DNA of 64,000 nucleotides, from positions 1,302,001 to 1,366,000 of the forward strand of contig NZ_FUWJ01000001.1 in assembly GCF_900167455.1 (NCBI RefSeq), read 5' to 3'. Positions 32,717 through 40,900 of this stretch are shown piece by piece (the stretch's first letter is position 1; each line of letters begins with the position of its first letter). The position numbers were made by a program, and so were the translations under genes. This DNA comes from Enhydrobacter aerosaccus. Its GTDB lineage: Bacteria > Pseudomonadota > Alphaproteobacteria > Reyranellales > Reyranellaceae. The notes under the pieces are model-generated. The model saw only the letters and a list, made by a program, of their open reading frames with translations, made no database searches and was not told the origin of the DNA.

Positions 32717-33928
32717 ATGGATTTGACGTTCGGCAAGGAAGAACTGGCGTTCCAGCAGGAAGTGCGCGACTGGCTGAAGGAGAACCTGACGCCCGAGATC
32801 GTGGGCGAACTGAAGGTCGCGCGAAATGCCTATTTGCCGAAGGAGCGGCTGATCGACTGGCAGAAGCGCCTGGCCAGGAAAGGCTGGCTCTGCACGGGCT
32901 GGCCGAAGGAATTCGGTGGACCCGGCTTCACCACCACGCAGAAGTATATTTTCGAGATGGAGATGGCGCGGGCGGGCGCTCCCGGAACGTCGCCGTTCGG
33001 GCCGAAAATGTGCGCGCCGGTGATCATGAAATACGGCTCGCCGGAGCAGAAGGCCCGGCACCTGCCGCCGATGCTCAATTCGGACCTGATCTGGTGCCAG
33101 GGCTATTCCGAACCAGGCTCCGGGTCGGATCTCGCCAGCTTGCGGACGCGAGCCGTGCGCGAGGGCGACTACTACATCATCAATGGCCAGAAGACCTGGA
33201 CCACGCTGGCGCAGACCGCCGATTGGATCTTCTGCCTCGTGCGGACCTCGACCGAGGGCAAGCCGCAGGAAGGCATCTCCTTCCTGCTGATCGACATGAA
33301 GACGCCCGGTATCTCGGTCGAGCCGATCATCACCGCCGACGGCAATCGCGCCGGCACGCAGGAAGTGAACTCGGTCTTCTTCACCGACGTCAAGGTGCCG
33401 GTCGAGAACCGCGTCGGCGAGGAGAACAAGGGCTGGACCTACGCCAAGTACCTGCTCGAGTTCGAGCGCGGCGGCAATCCCTACAGCCCGCGGCTGCGCT
33501 CCAGCTTCGAGCGTCTGAAGCGGCTGGCCTCGTCGATGGAAGAGGGCGAGGGCTCGATCCTGGCCGACCATGCCTGGCGCGAGAAGCTGGCGCGCATGGA
33601 TATCGAGATTTCCGGCCTCGAAATGTTCGAGCAGGAATTCTATTCCAAGCTGGCGTCGGGTCAGAATCCGGGACCGCTGTCGTCGATGATCAAGCTGCGC
33701 GGCACCGAGGTGATGCAGCAGGTCCAGGAATACTGCGTCGAGGCTGCTGGCTGGTACTCAATGCCGTTCCCCGAACAACGCGCGTGGAACGCGAATGTCG
33801 CGCCGATCGGACCGGAAGGCGTCGACGTGCTGGCGCCGCGCTACTTCAACGGCCGCAAGATGACGATCTATGGCGGCTCGTCGGAGGTGCAGCGTGGGAT
33901 CATGTCCAAAGTCATGCTGGGCCTTTAG
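32717..33928 (+). CDS. Acyl-CoA dehydrogenase (copy 1)
   Basis: A 403-residue FAD enzyme that makes a trans-2,3 double bond in an acyl-CoA. Domain order is normal: N-terminal helices (about 1-120), middle beta domain with signature YSEPGSGSDLASLRTRA (near 130-147), and C-terminal helices ending in YGGSSEVQRGIMSKVMLGL. GAGGAG precedes the ATG. It is a tandem paralogue of the next gene and shares a 57-bp exact DNA stretch with it. Chain specificity cannot be told; the neighbours suggest a branched, cyclic or otherwise unusual acyl-CoA. Both copies may form a heteromeric enzyme, as in some FadE pairs (inference). Confidence 0.94.
   Translation: MDLTFGKEELAFQQEVRDWLKENLTPEIVGELKVARNAYLPKERLIDWQKRLARKGWLCTGWPKEFGGPGFTTTQKYIFEMEMARAGAPGTSPFGPKMCAPVIMKYGSPEQKARHLPPMLNSDLIWCQGYSEPGSGSDLASLRTRAVREGDYYIINGQKTWTTLAQTADWIFCLVRTSTEGKPQEGISFLLIDMKTPGISVEPIITADGNRAGTQEVNSVFFTDVKVPVENRVGEENKGWTYAKYLLEFERGGNPYSPRLRSSFERLKRLASSMEEGEGSILADHAWREKLARMDIEISGLEMFEQEFYSKLASGQNPGPLSSMIKLRGTEVMQQVQEYCVEAAGWYSMPFPEQRAWNANVAPIGPEGVDVLAPRYFNGRKMTIYGGSSEVQRGIMSKVMLGL
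33419..33475 (+). repeat. 57-bp exact repeat, copy in acyl-CoA dehydrogenase 1
   Basis: By eye this stretch is identical to 34772-34828 in the second dehydrogenase. It encodes the conserved EENKGWTYAKYLLEFERGG segment. Identity at every third base suggests recent duplication or gene conversion. Confidence 0.8.
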
Positions 33929-34066: not shown

Positions 34067-35281
34067 ATGGATCTGGCGTTCAACGAAGAAGAACTGGCCT
34101 TCCAGAAGGAAGTACGCGACTGGATCGAGGCCAACATGCCGCCGGAAGTGGCCGAGGAAAGCCGCCGTAGTCGATCGAGCCACGTGTCGAAGGAGCGGCT
34201 GCTGCAGTGGCAGAAGAAGCTCGCTGGCAAGGGCTGGCTGTGCCCGAACTGGCCCAGGGAATATGGCGGCCCGGGCTGGAACTCGACGCAGAAGTTCATT
34301 TTTGAAATGGAGATGGCGCGCGCGGACTCGCCCTATCTCTCGTCATTCAGCATCAAGATGGTCGCGCCGGTGTTGATGAAGTTCGGTAGCGAGGCCCAGA
34401 AAAAGCGCTTCTTGCCGAAGATCGCCGCCGCCGAGGAACTCTGGTGCCAAGGCTACTCCGAGCCGGGCTCGGGCTCTGATCTTGCCAGCCTGCGTACCCG
34501 GGCGGTGCGCGAAGGCGACCATTACATCGTCAACGGCCAGAAGATCTGGACCACCAATGCGCATTTCGCCGACTGGATCTTCTGTCTCGTGCGCACCTCG
34601 ACCGAAGGCAAGCAGCAGGAAGGCATCTCCTTTCTGCTGATCGACATGAAGTCGCCCGGCATCCGAATCGACCCGATCTACCTGGTCGATGGCACGCGCA
34701 CGCCGATGCGGCACGAGGTGAACCAGGTCTTCTTCACCGATGTGAAGGTCCCGGTCGAAAATCTGGTGGGTGAGGAGAACAAGGGCTGGACCTACGCCAA
34801 GTACCTGCTCGAGTTCGAGCGCGGCGGCCAGGCCTTCGGACCGCGGCTACGCAAGGCGTTCCGACATTTGCAGACCCTGTCGAAGAGCCAGCTGAGCGAA
34901 GGCGAGCCTCTTTCGGCCAATCCGGTGTGGCGCGAGAAGATGGCTGCAGTCGAGATGGAGATCGATGCCGTCGAGATGAACGAGCTGATGTTCTATTCGA
35001 GCCTCAAGACCGGCGACGCGCCTGGCAACATGGGTTCGGTCGTGAAGATGCGAGGCACGGAGGCCGGGCAGAAGGTCACCGAACTCGCGGTCGAGGCCGT
35101 CGGCTGGTATGGCGTGCCGTTCACGGAACTGCGCAACTTCGACAGCAACGTCGTCCCCGTCGGCGGCGAGTATGTCGATGACGTGGCCCCGCGCTATTTC
35201 AACAACCGCAAGACCACCATCTATGGCGGTTCCTCGGAAGTGCAGAGGAACGTGCTGGCGAAGGCGATGCTGGGACTGTGA
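34067..35281 (+). CDS. Acyl-CoA dehydrogenase (copy 2)
   Basis: A 404-residue paralogue of the preceding gene with the same domains: YSEPGSGSDLASLRTRA in the middle domain and YGGSSEVQRNVLAKAMLGL at the end. Both copies share long blocks, for example EGISFLLIDMK, but differ around the substrate-side residues (TADGNRAGTQE versus LVDGTRTPMRHE), so specificity may have diverged. The 138-bp gap between the copies is filled with inverted repeats rather than a simple linker. A GTAGGGA ribosome site precedes the ATG at 34067. Confidence 0.94.
   Translation: MDLAFNEEELAFQKEVRDWIEANMPPEVAEESRRSRSSHVSKERLLQWQKKLAGKGWLCPNWPREYGGPGWNSTQKFIFEMEMARADSPYLSSFSIKMVAPVLMKFGSEAQKKRFLPKIAAAEELWCQGYSEPGSGSDLASLRTRAVREGDHYIVNGQKIWTTNAHFADWIFCLVRTSTEGKQQEGISFLLIDMKSPGIRIDPIYLVDGTRTPMRHEVNQVFFTDVKVPVENLVGEENKGWTYAKYLLEFERGGQAFGPRLRKAFRHLQTLSKSQLSEGEPLSANPVWREKMAAVEMEIDAVEMNELMFYSSLKTGDAPGNMGSVVKMRGTEAGQKVTELAVEAVGWYGVPFTELRNFDSNVVPVGGEYVDDVAPRYFNNRKTTIYGGSSEVQRNVLAKAMLGL
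34772..34828 (+). repeat. 57-bp exact repeat, copy in acyl-CoA dehydrogenase 2
   Basis: Second copy of the stretch at 33419-33475, offset 1353 bp. Confidence 0.8.
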
Positions 35282-38142: not shown

Positions 38143-38955
38143 TCATAACGGCGAGTAGGGATCGAACTTGGGCTTGCGCTTCTCCAGATGCGAGGCAAGG
38201 CCTTCCTTCACATCCGGCCCGAGGAAGCCCAGCATTTCCAAGCCGAGCGACGTGTCGAAGGTCGGCCCCATCATGCGCAGCCAGTTATTGAGCGCGTACT
38301 TGGTGAACCGGATCGCCGACTGGGCGCCTTCGGCGAGCTTGGTGGCGATCTCGACGCCCTTGGCCTCGAGTTGATCATCCTCGACGCAGAGGGAGACCAG
38401 GCCAATGCGCTCGGCTTCCTCGCCGTCGACGGACTCGCACAGCAGCAGATAGTATTTGGCCTTGGCCATGCCGCAGAGCAGGGGCCAGACAATGCAGGCA
38501 TGATCGCCGGCGGCGACGCCCAGACGGGTATGGCCGTCGATGATGCGCGCCTTCTTCGAGGCGATCGAGACGTCGGCCAGGATTCCGGCTACCAGACCTG
38601 CGCCCACGGCGGGGCCACGGATCGTGCTGACGATCGGCTTGGAGCAATTGATCACGTTGTAGACGATGTCGCGCGCTTCCTTCCAGGTGCGGAGGAGGGC
38701 GTTGTGATCCTTCATGTTCTTTTCGATGATGTCGAAATCGCCACCAGCCGAGAACACCTTGCCGCCGGCGCCCTGGATGATGACGCAGTTGACCGAGTCG
38801 TCGCCGTCGATGTCGCGCCAGACCTCGACCAGCTCGCGATGCATGATCGCATCGGTCGCGTTGTACTTCTCGGGGCGGTTCATCGTGACCCGCAGCACCT
38901 TGGGATGCGGGCGATCAAACACCAGGCGCTGATAGCGCTTCTGCCAGTCGGACAT
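38143..38955 (-). CDS. Enoyl-CoA hydratase/isomerase family (crotonase-like) protein
   Basis: A 270-residue crotonase-fold protein with the oxyanion-hole segments SAGGDFD (69-75) and RGPAVGAGL (113-121). Aligned by eye with rat enoyl-CoA hydratase, the two catalytic glutamates fall on Val122 and His142, so ordinary hydration by the Glu pair is unlikely; an isomerase, hydrolase, C-C lyase or other crotonase reaction is possible. GGAGGAGA precedes the ATG. It is the first gene of the minus-strand run with the BadH-like and TauD genes, and a 412-bp gene-free region with palindromes lies upstream. Confidence 0.88.
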
Positions 38956-39150
38956 AAGGTCTCCTCCGTTTGGGAGAAGCCTATCATCTCGGTGGCGCTA
39001 CTCCAGCGAAGCCGCTTTCGCCGCGCGAACGATGGCGGCGCATTGGTGACCAGAATCCGGTCTGGCAAGCGACCGCGGTTACAATGCGCGCGTGGCCCCG
39101 ATGGAGGTGCAGCCGTTCCTCGTCGCGACCAGTGTGGAGTGAGGGCCAAA

Positions 39151-39185
39151 TTCCCGAATTCGGGAACGTTCGGGAAAGAACGTTC
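39151..39185. promoter_or_regulatory. Palindrome cluster, candidate operator
   Basis: A perfect 16-bp palindrome TTCCCGAATTCGGGAA is followed two bases later by a repeat of its right half and then by GAACGTTC. Clustered, evenly phased half-sites (TTCGGGAA at 39159 and 39169) suggest cooperative binding of a regulator about 200 bp upstream of the crotonase-like gene. Confidence 0.55.
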
Positions 39186-39304
39186 GCCAGGTACGGCAAG
39201 TCTATGATGCAAAAGAGTTTTTCGATGGCGTCTCGCAAATTCCCGAAAAGCGCGTTTTCTCGCAATCGAGAAAGAGCCGAAGCGCCAGGAACGCGTGGTT
39301 CAGT

Positions 39305-39325
39305 AGAGCGCGGCGACCGCGCTCT
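39305..39325 (-). terminator. GC hairpin after trpE
   Basis: AGAGCGCGG and CCGCGCTCT are perfect 9-bp inverted arms with loop CGA, 42 bases after the trpE stop on the minus strand. No T run follows, so it is a possible weak or Rho-assisted terminator. Confidence 0.5.
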
Positions 39326-39367
39326 TCAGACCTCGGGAGAATGAACTCGAGAGTGGCTGCGGTCAGC

Positions 39368-40900
39368 TTAGCGGCGCGTGTTGCCGGCGTTCCAGTTGCC
39401 GGCCGAGGCGAAGCGGATAGCCTCCTCAGCAGCTTGAACCAGGGCACGCGCCTTCTGGATGCTCTCCTGGTACTCGGCCTCGAGATCGGAATCGGCCACG
39501 ACGCCGACGCCGGCTTGCACGTAGAGCGTGTTATCCTTCACCAGGCCGGTGCGCAGCAGGATGCAGGTATCCATCGACCCGTTGGCGGCGAAGTAACCGG
39601 CGCAGCCGGCATAGATGCCGCGCCGCACCGGCTCGAGCTCGTCGATGATCTGCATGGCGCGGACCTTCGGCGCGCCGGAGAGCGTGCCCGCCGGGAAGCC
39701 TGCCTTCAGCGCGTCGAGGGCCTCGAGGCCGTCCTGCAGCTTGCCCTCGACGTGGCTGCTGATGTGCTGGACGTGGCTGTACTTCTCGATGGTGAACTGC
39801 TCGACCACCTTCACCGAGCCGATCTTGGACACGCGGCCGACATCGTTGCGGGCCAGGTCGACCAGCATCAGATGCTCGGCTCGCTCCTTGGGATCGGCCA
39901 GCAGTTCGTCGGCCAGCCGCTTGTCTTCTTCCGGCGTGGCACCGCGGCGGCGGGTGCCGGCAAGCGGGCGGATGGTGACGGTGTTGTCGCGCAGTCGGAC
40001 CAGGATCTCTGGACTGGAGCCGACAATGGAGAAGTCGCCATAGTCGAAGAAGATCAGGAACGGCGACGGGTTGAGGCGGCGCAGAGAGCGGTAGAGCGAC
40101 AACGGCGGCAGCTTGAACGGCAGGGAGAAACGCTGCGATGGCACGATCTGGAACGCGTCGCCGGCAAGGATGTATTCCTTGCAGGTCTCGACCATCTTCT
40201 TGAACGCGTCCTTCGACATGTTGGCCTGCGGCTGGGGCAGGCTGTCGAGCACATCGGCGTTCTCCCGCCGGTAGGGTAGGGAGCGCTCGAAGTCGGAGAC
40301 CGCGTCGGCCAGCCGCTCCTCGGCGGCTTCATAGGCCGCGCGCGCGCCGATACCCGGCTGCGGCCAGACGGGCGTGACCATGGCCACGTTGTCCTCGAGG
40401 CGGTCGAAGATGCAGATCAGCGTCGGGCGCACCATGATCGCATCGGGCAGGCCGAGCGGGTCCGGGTTCTTGTCCGGCAGCCGCTCCATGTCGCGGACCA
40501 TGTCATAGCCGAGAAAGCCGAACAGGCCCGACGCCATCGGCGGCAAGCCCTGCGGCAGATCCATCTGGCACTCGCGGATCAGGGCGCGCAGCGTCTCCAG
40601 CGGCCGGCCCTCGAGCGGCTCGAAGGCGTGGGCATCGCTGCGGGCCCTGCGATTGATCTCCGCCTGACCACGGCGGCACCGCCAGATCACATCCGGCTTG
40701 AAGCCGATGATGGAATAGCGCCCGCGCACCGAGCCACCCTCGACCGATTCCAGCAGGAACGAATTCGGCCGGCCGTCGGCGAGCTTGAGATAGGCCGAAA
40801 CCGGCGTCTCGAGATCGGCTACCGCCTTGGTCCAGACCAGCTGCGGCTTGCCCGACTCGTAGACCTTGGCGAAAGCATCATAATCAGGGGAGGCGGGCAT
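39368..40900 (-). CDS. trpE: Anthranilate synthase component I
   Basis: TrpE makes anthranilate from chorismate using ammonia from TrpG. The 510-residue protein has the N-terminal regulatory domain with the LLES motif that senses tryptophan, and the chorismate-binding domain (about 230-500) with PSPFLIFF, GTRRRGATPEED, HLMLVDLARND and GFPAGTLSGAPK. It is the monofunctional form, not the TrpE-TrpG fusion seen in rhizobia. It starts 4 bp after ppiD and is probably translated from the same mRNA. About 22 kb separate it from trpG. No leader peptide or attenuator is visible. Confidence 0.97.
   Translation of the reverse strand: MPASPDYDAFAKVYESGKPQLVWTKAVADLETPVSAYLKLADGRPNSFLLESVEGGSVRGRYSIIGFKPDVIWRCRRGQAEINRRARSDAHAFEPLEGRPLETLRALIRECQMDLPQGLPPMASGLFGFLGYDMVRDMERLPDKNPDPLGLPDAIMVRPTLICIFDRLEDNVAMVTPVWPQPGIGARAAYEAAEERLADAVSDFERSLPYRRENADVLDSLPQPQANMSKDAFKKMVETCKEYILAGDAFQIVPSQRFSLPFKLPPLSLYRSLRRLNPSPFLIFFDYGDFSIVGSSPEILVRLRDNTVTIRPLAGTRRRGATPEEDKRLADELLADPKERAEHLMLVDLARNDVGRVSKIGSVKVVEQFTIEKYSHVQHISSHVEGKLQDGLEALDALKAGFPAGTLSGAPKVRAMQIIDELEPVRRGIYAGCAGYFAANGSMDTCILLRTGLVKDNTLYVQAGVGVVADSDLEAEYQESIQKARALVQAAEEAIRFASAGNWNAGNTRR

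Follow-up and report, generated by a model that had tools for sequence, protein, structure and literature searches.

What does a group of short palindromes between trpE and a crotonase gene do, and does it belong to the genes beside it? The window analysed here is the whole 64,000-nucleotide stretch of the Enhydrobacter aerosaccus genome, and in it units of the form TTC-SS-GAA (TTCCCGAA or TTCGGGAA) occur four times within 97 bp (39151-39247), between the start of an enoyl-CoA hydratase (crotonase) gene (38955, minus strand) and the stop of trpE (39368, minus strand). The run downstream of the cluster comprises the crotonase gene, assigned to enoyl-CoA hydratase with Pfam, a short-chain dehydrogenase (SDR) and a TauD-family dioxygenase; for the gene that had been named BadH in the preliminary description, Pfam gives the SDR family only. 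Elsewhere in the window, the neighbouring ORFs at 32717-33928 and 34067-35281 are similar in sequence and acyl-CoA dehydrogenase-like, judging from the ORF list. The motifs of the preliminary description were all recovered where it had placed them, and their clustering is beyond chance: the maximum was one unit per 100 bp in 300 windows simulated with a first-order Markov model, none reaching two. Over the window as a whole, TTCCCGAA is found seven times against 2.46 expected, a total reached in 2 of 100 shuffles, and a scan of all 64 kb found no second array of clustered units, in agreement with the claim that this is the only such cluster in the window. The DNA had also been described as gene-free, and this is borne out by its position between the crotonase start and the trpE stop and by the four ORFs that overlap the cluster (93-339 aa), whose scores on an ad hoc codon measure are all negative (-16 to -24). 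LexA-type sites have the form GTTC-N7-GTTC, and such a site was rejected for the cluster after a by-eye check, the spacing being 10. Three terminator-like sites were counted in 38800-39600 against 0.5 expected, none of which was accepted as explaining the cluster. Features are listed in Table 1.

Table 1. Features of the palindrome cluster and its surroundings; positions are those of the window, and u1 to u4 are the units in element orientation.
Feature	Position	Strand	Basis or comparison
Family A element core, u4 to u1	39151..39247	-	Layout also at 5 other genome places (97 bp in four, 95 bp in one) and in 14 G057/G063 copies
u1, TTCGGGAA	39240..39247	-	Starts 71 bp before u2 in 5/6 genome copies, 69 bp in one; outside search pattern
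u2, TTCCCGAA	39169..39176	-	Aligned copies
u3, TTCCCGAA	39159..39166	-	10 bp after u2 in 6/6 copies; inside search pattern
u4, TTCGGGAA	39151..39158	-	8 bp after u3 in 6/6 copies; inside search pattern
Spacer, 63 bp, length kept, sequence diverged, weak IHF-like match	39177..39239	-	Identity 38% vs 25% in letter shuffles
16-bp palindrome TTCCCGAATTCGGGAA	39151-39166		Motif search of window
TTCGGGAA as read in window	39169-39176		Motif search of window
GAACGTTC	39164-39171 and 39178-39185		Motif search of window
TTCCCGAA as read in window	39240-39247		Motif search of window
A/T inverted repeat GAAAAGCGCGTTTTC, overlapping u1	39245..39259		A-run and T-run adjoin u1 in six aligned copies
TTTCTCG/CGAGAAA inverted repeat, between element and trpE	39256-39262/39267-39273 (39256..39273)		Absent from other aligned copies
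G+C-rich hairpin behind trpE, terminator-like, without T-run	39300..39330	-	Inverted repeat I7

In the genome-wide search that the preliminary description had called for, the 16-mer palindrome was found at 2 places (0 for its reversed control) and the four-unit layout at six. In this layout, named family A, successive units from u1 to u4 start 71, 10 and 8 bp apart (one copy has 69 bp for the first step). It is seen at six places in the 6.77-Mb genome, with the window copy oriented along the minus strand. The u2-u3-u4 pattern (TTCNNGAANNTTCNNGAATTCNNGAA) is exact at all six, and an intact u1 lies 69-71 bp before u2 in 6/6. Among looser matches to the pattern, seven have three mismatches, and there is a single match each at one and at two mismatches, against one match for the control. 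Such scarcity of near-exact hits (one or two mismatches) speaks against steady neutral decay. Outside the six copies there are degenerate or differently spaced sites in loci L054, L055 and L056, which are among the nine A or A-like sites of the gene-context survey given below, and a fragment in L057. An alternative layout with unit pairs at both ends is found at C13:551976 and C3:49879. Another repeated 16-mer, TTCCGCAATTCGGGCA, is present in both orientations at six places (C17:1070074, 1070236 and 1070807; C17:268705 and 268923; C8:84384). With moderate confidence, the cluster is assigned to family A as one copy of an element that is dispersed between genes and restricted to the genus, a REP/BIME-like mosaic of putative dimer sites that would have been gained behind trpE, and it is probably not a private switch for a neighbouring gene.

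Conservation within family A is concentrated in the units. In the five copies of equal length (L051, of 95 bp, was excluded from column identities) every one of the 24 fixed unit columns is invariant, whereas spacer identity is 37.8% against 25.4% (sd 1.7) after letter shuffling; since the copies were found through the u2-u3-u4 triple, the conservation of the triple is partly hit selection, from which the intact u1 in 6/6 copies is exempt. The 14 family A copies of the relatives G057 and G063, which exclude two overlapping triples in L058 and one triple in L064 that have another layout (both in G057), are 95% identical in units and 58% in spacers. Thus, the units look constrained and the spacers do not. 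The two central bases are GG or CC, on either strand, in 23 of the 24 units of this genome, and GC without exception (44/44 units) in the 11 copies compared from G063, while of three G057 copies one has GC throughout, one CG throughout, and one alternates CG and CA; the L058 triple carries three different centres. Because units of this genome can be on either strand, complementarity of u1 and u2 is limited to 4/6 own copies, which is near chance and, with few copies (n = 6), favours a dimer on double-stranded DNA over an RNA stem. A DNA-binding protein would be the best reason for four invariant, fixed-spaced units that are indifferent to strand.

Family A is restricted to the genus within the collections searched. 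Exact A triples are present in 3/65 genus genomes (six in this genome, five in G057 and four in G063) and in 0 of 81 further genomes of the same search, with one match to the reversed control among all 146. In a collection of 84,980 species, from which records close to the window's own may be omitted, the SS-form triple was found in 8 stretches, all from just two Rhodospirillales MAGs (matching G057 and G063). At the locus itself, trpE and the crotonase gene are 412 bp apart here and 23-187 bp apart in 20/20 relatives, which were picked by eye, as having the two genes adjacent, from 62 relatives with a match; none of the 20 gaps has a TTC-NN-GAA or CTC-NN-GAG unit. These include gaps of 23 and 109 bp in G057 and G063, which are unit-free although both genomes carry arrays elsewhere. 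The best trpE match (90%) is in G062, a genome with no exact A triple and no B triple (family B, below) at up to one mismatch, and relative to it the extra DNA is located between about 39095 and the trpE stop, with edges that are not clean. The extra DNA at the window locus is thus lineage-specific. At another locus, C13:1209k, G062 has 281 bp of other sequence without units. In G001 the corresponding place (L247, G001:C4:9850-10300), with a weak left anchor, has a single CTCATGAG flanked by an inverted repeat of another sequence, GGGACCGCGGGCCTCC with its complement. The crotonase gene starts 23-113 bp behind trpE in 18/20 relatives, suggesting that insertion may have split two genes that were once co-transcribed. 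No autonomous element and no target duplication were found; mobility would therefore be read from the difference in gap length, which loss in the relatives may also account for.

Further array families are present in the genus. Family B consists of CTC-NN-GAG units at 50 or 51, 9 and 9 bp; when up to one mismatch is allowed, this genome has 16 such sites, and a unit stands at the u1 place in 15 of them. It has a match in 10/65 genus genomes, of which G044 and G049 have units that are unlike and may be chance, and its reversed control has none in 65/65. Across the class, an exact search found it in 2/385 genomes (five of the 385 being in the same family), namely this genome and G351. In the latter there are two CTCATGAG tandems, and the 90 bp on either side of them contain no unit at the distance of u1. 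The genus count is 70 sites, and the copies compared are 45, being 50 aligned rows from fetched loci minus five that were misregistered, with G044 and G049 left out. By centre, 39 of the 45 are uniform, with GC throughout in 27 and AT throughout in 12, and the remaining 6 are AT copies in which one or two units deviate; mixing of GC and AT was seen in 0/45. Counting against uniform centres are these six, the alternating G057 copy of family A and the mixed L058. Complementarity is frequent in family B among the bases adjoining u1 and u2 and stretches of the spacer. Family D (CCNTT/AANGG) is made up of CCNTTAAAYAAANGG / CCRTTAAAYAAAYGG plus a third half-site, AAYGG; the two arms agree at the variable base in 14/14 copies from fetched loci, and the third half-site, present in 11, agrees in 10 (example sites: L054 5264, L056 5222, L104 1805, L259 1420 and L284 1383). 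The type C repeat (TTCCC..GGGAAG) comprises about CCTCGGATGCCGATGGC, CAAGGC and CTTCCCA, and lies left of B at L110, L115, L116, L106, L108, L266 and L267. A and B are adjacent in L049, A occurs with two types of B in L118, C with B in several loci, and B with D in L259. Different palindromic motifs are thus found together in one intergenic stretch and dispersed, as in bacterial interspersed mosaic elements (BIMEs), to which the mosaics formed by families A-D are, by analogy, akin.

Promoter-like motifs were noted near many of these sites. One, approximately ATAAGC-N18-TATTATGGTCGCC by eye, is seen roughly 50-160 bp past u4 at many A and B sites, with motifs of the ATAAGC type at L104-L107, L110 (e.g. 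1933), L112, L116, L051, L053 and L055. At up to one mismatch, CCTATTATGGTCGCC has 11 matches in the genome, six beside B sites and three beside degenerate B (L259, L266 and L267). A TTGAC-like promoter with a palindrome of the TTGCGATATACGCAA type is aimed at the array in L001 (near 1620), L004 (near 1600), L108 and L103.

The arrays could alternatively be operators of one transcription factor, which would control the crotonase run and a small regulon by DNA looping. Invariant dyads in a fixed geometry, and the position of the window element, about 190 bp ahead of the crotonase start, are consistent with this. However, in gene contexts taken from an ad hoc codon-usage gene call, several copies lie no more than about 100 bp behind a gene 3' end, and 0/9 A or A-like sites are between divergent genes (3/14 for B sites that have a called gene on each side). 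Nor is the site conserved where an operator should be, the region upstream of crotonase being unit-free in 20/20 relatives, and a simple scan of 38800-39600, of a kind that misses many promoters, found 0 sigma-70-like promoters. This explanation is considered unlikely. The suggestion of a dedicated regulator in the preliminary description is accordingly split: a DNA-binding protein would still best explain the units, but dedication to the crotonase, SDR and TauD genes is unsupported, given the array at five other genome places, its absence from the locus in the relatives and the copies behind gene 3' ends. In the same survey, one of the nine A or A-like sites (L052) is inside a low-scoring ORF, and there is a weak orientation bias, with the gene on the u1 side ending towards the element in 6/9 A and 11/15 B sites.

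Still less probable is a 3'-UTR RNA or intrinsic terminator, in which pairing between the units, once transcribed, would terminate the mRNA or protect it. A gene 3' end borders 21/24 own sites, although some of these ends are several hundred bases off, and the A-run beside u1 is a T-run on the opposite strand. Good folding is seen in the 45 copies of family B (mean z -4.4 on one strand and -3.9 on the other), with a consensus in which u1 pairs with u4 and u2 with u3, GC and AT changes being kept, and without a long u1-spacer-u2 hairpin; the G057 and G063 copies of family A also fold somewhat better than shuffles (mean z -2.3). Against this, the own A copies fold weakly on the element strand, with z between -0.3 and -1.6 in five of six (-1.6 for the window copy; L050, at -4.2, is the exception), and an Rfam search of 38900-39500 gave no match up to E = 1. 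Given the weak folding of the own copies and the near-chance complementarity of their units, an RNA stem was rejected for family A. Finally, a chance cluster in a G+C-rich genome would draw on the shortness of the motifs and on the 48 genome places that match the 16-mer at up to three mismatches (18 for its reversed control), but is practically negligible, with no simulated window having two units per 100 bp, and is refuted by the recurrence of the full layout at five other places.

The preferred reading, of a dispersed element, invites comparison with known repeats. The usual explanation of small intergenic repeats invokes hairpins and RAYT transposases. RIB/RIP and Correia-type repeats are small and carry an IHF site. 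Family A resembles REPs and BIMEs in being intergenic, palindromic, dispersed, mosaic, often downstream of genes and patchy among relatives. It differs in that its units are 8-bp dyads in fixed multi-unit arrays, whereas REPs are stem-loops of 20-40 bp. The unit design of family A is unlike that of REP stem-loops (PMC3733652, PMC8266576, PMC2817692). Its copy number is also low (six exact), where REPs are usually reported at more than 100 per genome (PMC2817692). Alphaproteobacterial CGTC-tagged REPs are described as having an 8-9-bp stem with a loop of 4-5 nt; they carry a CGTC tag, in most cases a CCA tail as well, and have no known dedicated transposase (PMC3733652). Family A is like them in being alphaproteobacterial, dispersed and without a known dedicated transposase, and CGTC follows one base after u4 in 5/11 G063 copies, but its units lack a loop, so that no 8-9-bp stem with a 4-5-nt loop is present, and CGTC is absent within 10 bp of the core, on either strand, in 6/6 own copies. 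GTAG is likewise absent within 10 bp of the core, on either strand, in 6/6. Because neither tag is found in the own copies and the unit design differs, the element is named REP/BIME-like and not assigned to either tagged superfamily. IHF sites are mentioned for small repeats of the RIB/RIP/Correia type (PMC2229807), and family A is similar in that its palindromes flank a possible IHF site; it is dissimilar in that this site is a weak match to the consensus and that no MITE-type terminal inverted repeats were recognised. Among the matches listed in the literature search, no paper was recognised as describing these motifs as bacterial repeats.

A Y1 transposase (PF01797) was found in 33/65 genus genomes, comprising 7/10 with a B match and 26/55 of the others, and in 0/3 of the array-bearing G063, G057 and G036 (G063 and G057 being 88% complete). 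This genome has two PF01797 matches, one of them in a unit-free 3.2-kb locus. With no clear link seen between transposase and arrays (7/10 against 26/55, and three array carriers without Y1), dependence on RAYT was not adopted as an explanation. A viral origin was rejected: 32 viral contigs have a B triple, but in none does a unit start 50-51 bp ahead of the triple or at the mirror-image position, and the one viral contig that matches the A triple is without a unit at the u1 place.

How the element would work can be outlined from its geometry. A sequence-specific protein may sit on each unit as a dimer and recognise the two central bases as well, and the spacer, perhaps bent by IHF, could bring u1 and u2-u4 into one looped complex. 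The IHF consensus is WATCARNNNNTTR. The best IHF-like score falls at one common place in 17/20 spacers (14/14 relative copies and 3/6 own), and the mean best score over the 20 copies is 7.7 of 9 against 6.2 (sd 0.14) for letter shuffles, a comparison in which related copies are not independent and dinucleotides are ignored. The window copy has its best score, 7 of 9, away from the shared place and so is outside the 17. Given shared ancestry, the dinucleotide-blind shuffle and the position of the window copy, looping by IHF is a suggestion only. In this lineage the element would have been gained behind trpE, and would now part trpE from the crotonase gene.

What is conserved here is the arrangement of dyads in a fixed array, while the spacers have diverged; this is unlike the usual account of small repeats through hairpins and RAYT transposases. 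A broader proposal, tentative and more doubtful than probable, is that the genus holds several co-resident families of multi-unit palindromic arrays with "dialects", in which the variable bases shift together per copy, each dialect being read by its own protein; the arrays would then be either a new type of looped nucleoprotein site spread across the chromosome or non-autonomous mobile elements of a new, Y1-independent class. The case also cautions against taking intergenic palindromes in this genus for operators of the next gene. Within a copy, and from one species to another, the letters of the units tend to vary together, which would record the co-evolution of a DNA-binding protein and its sites.
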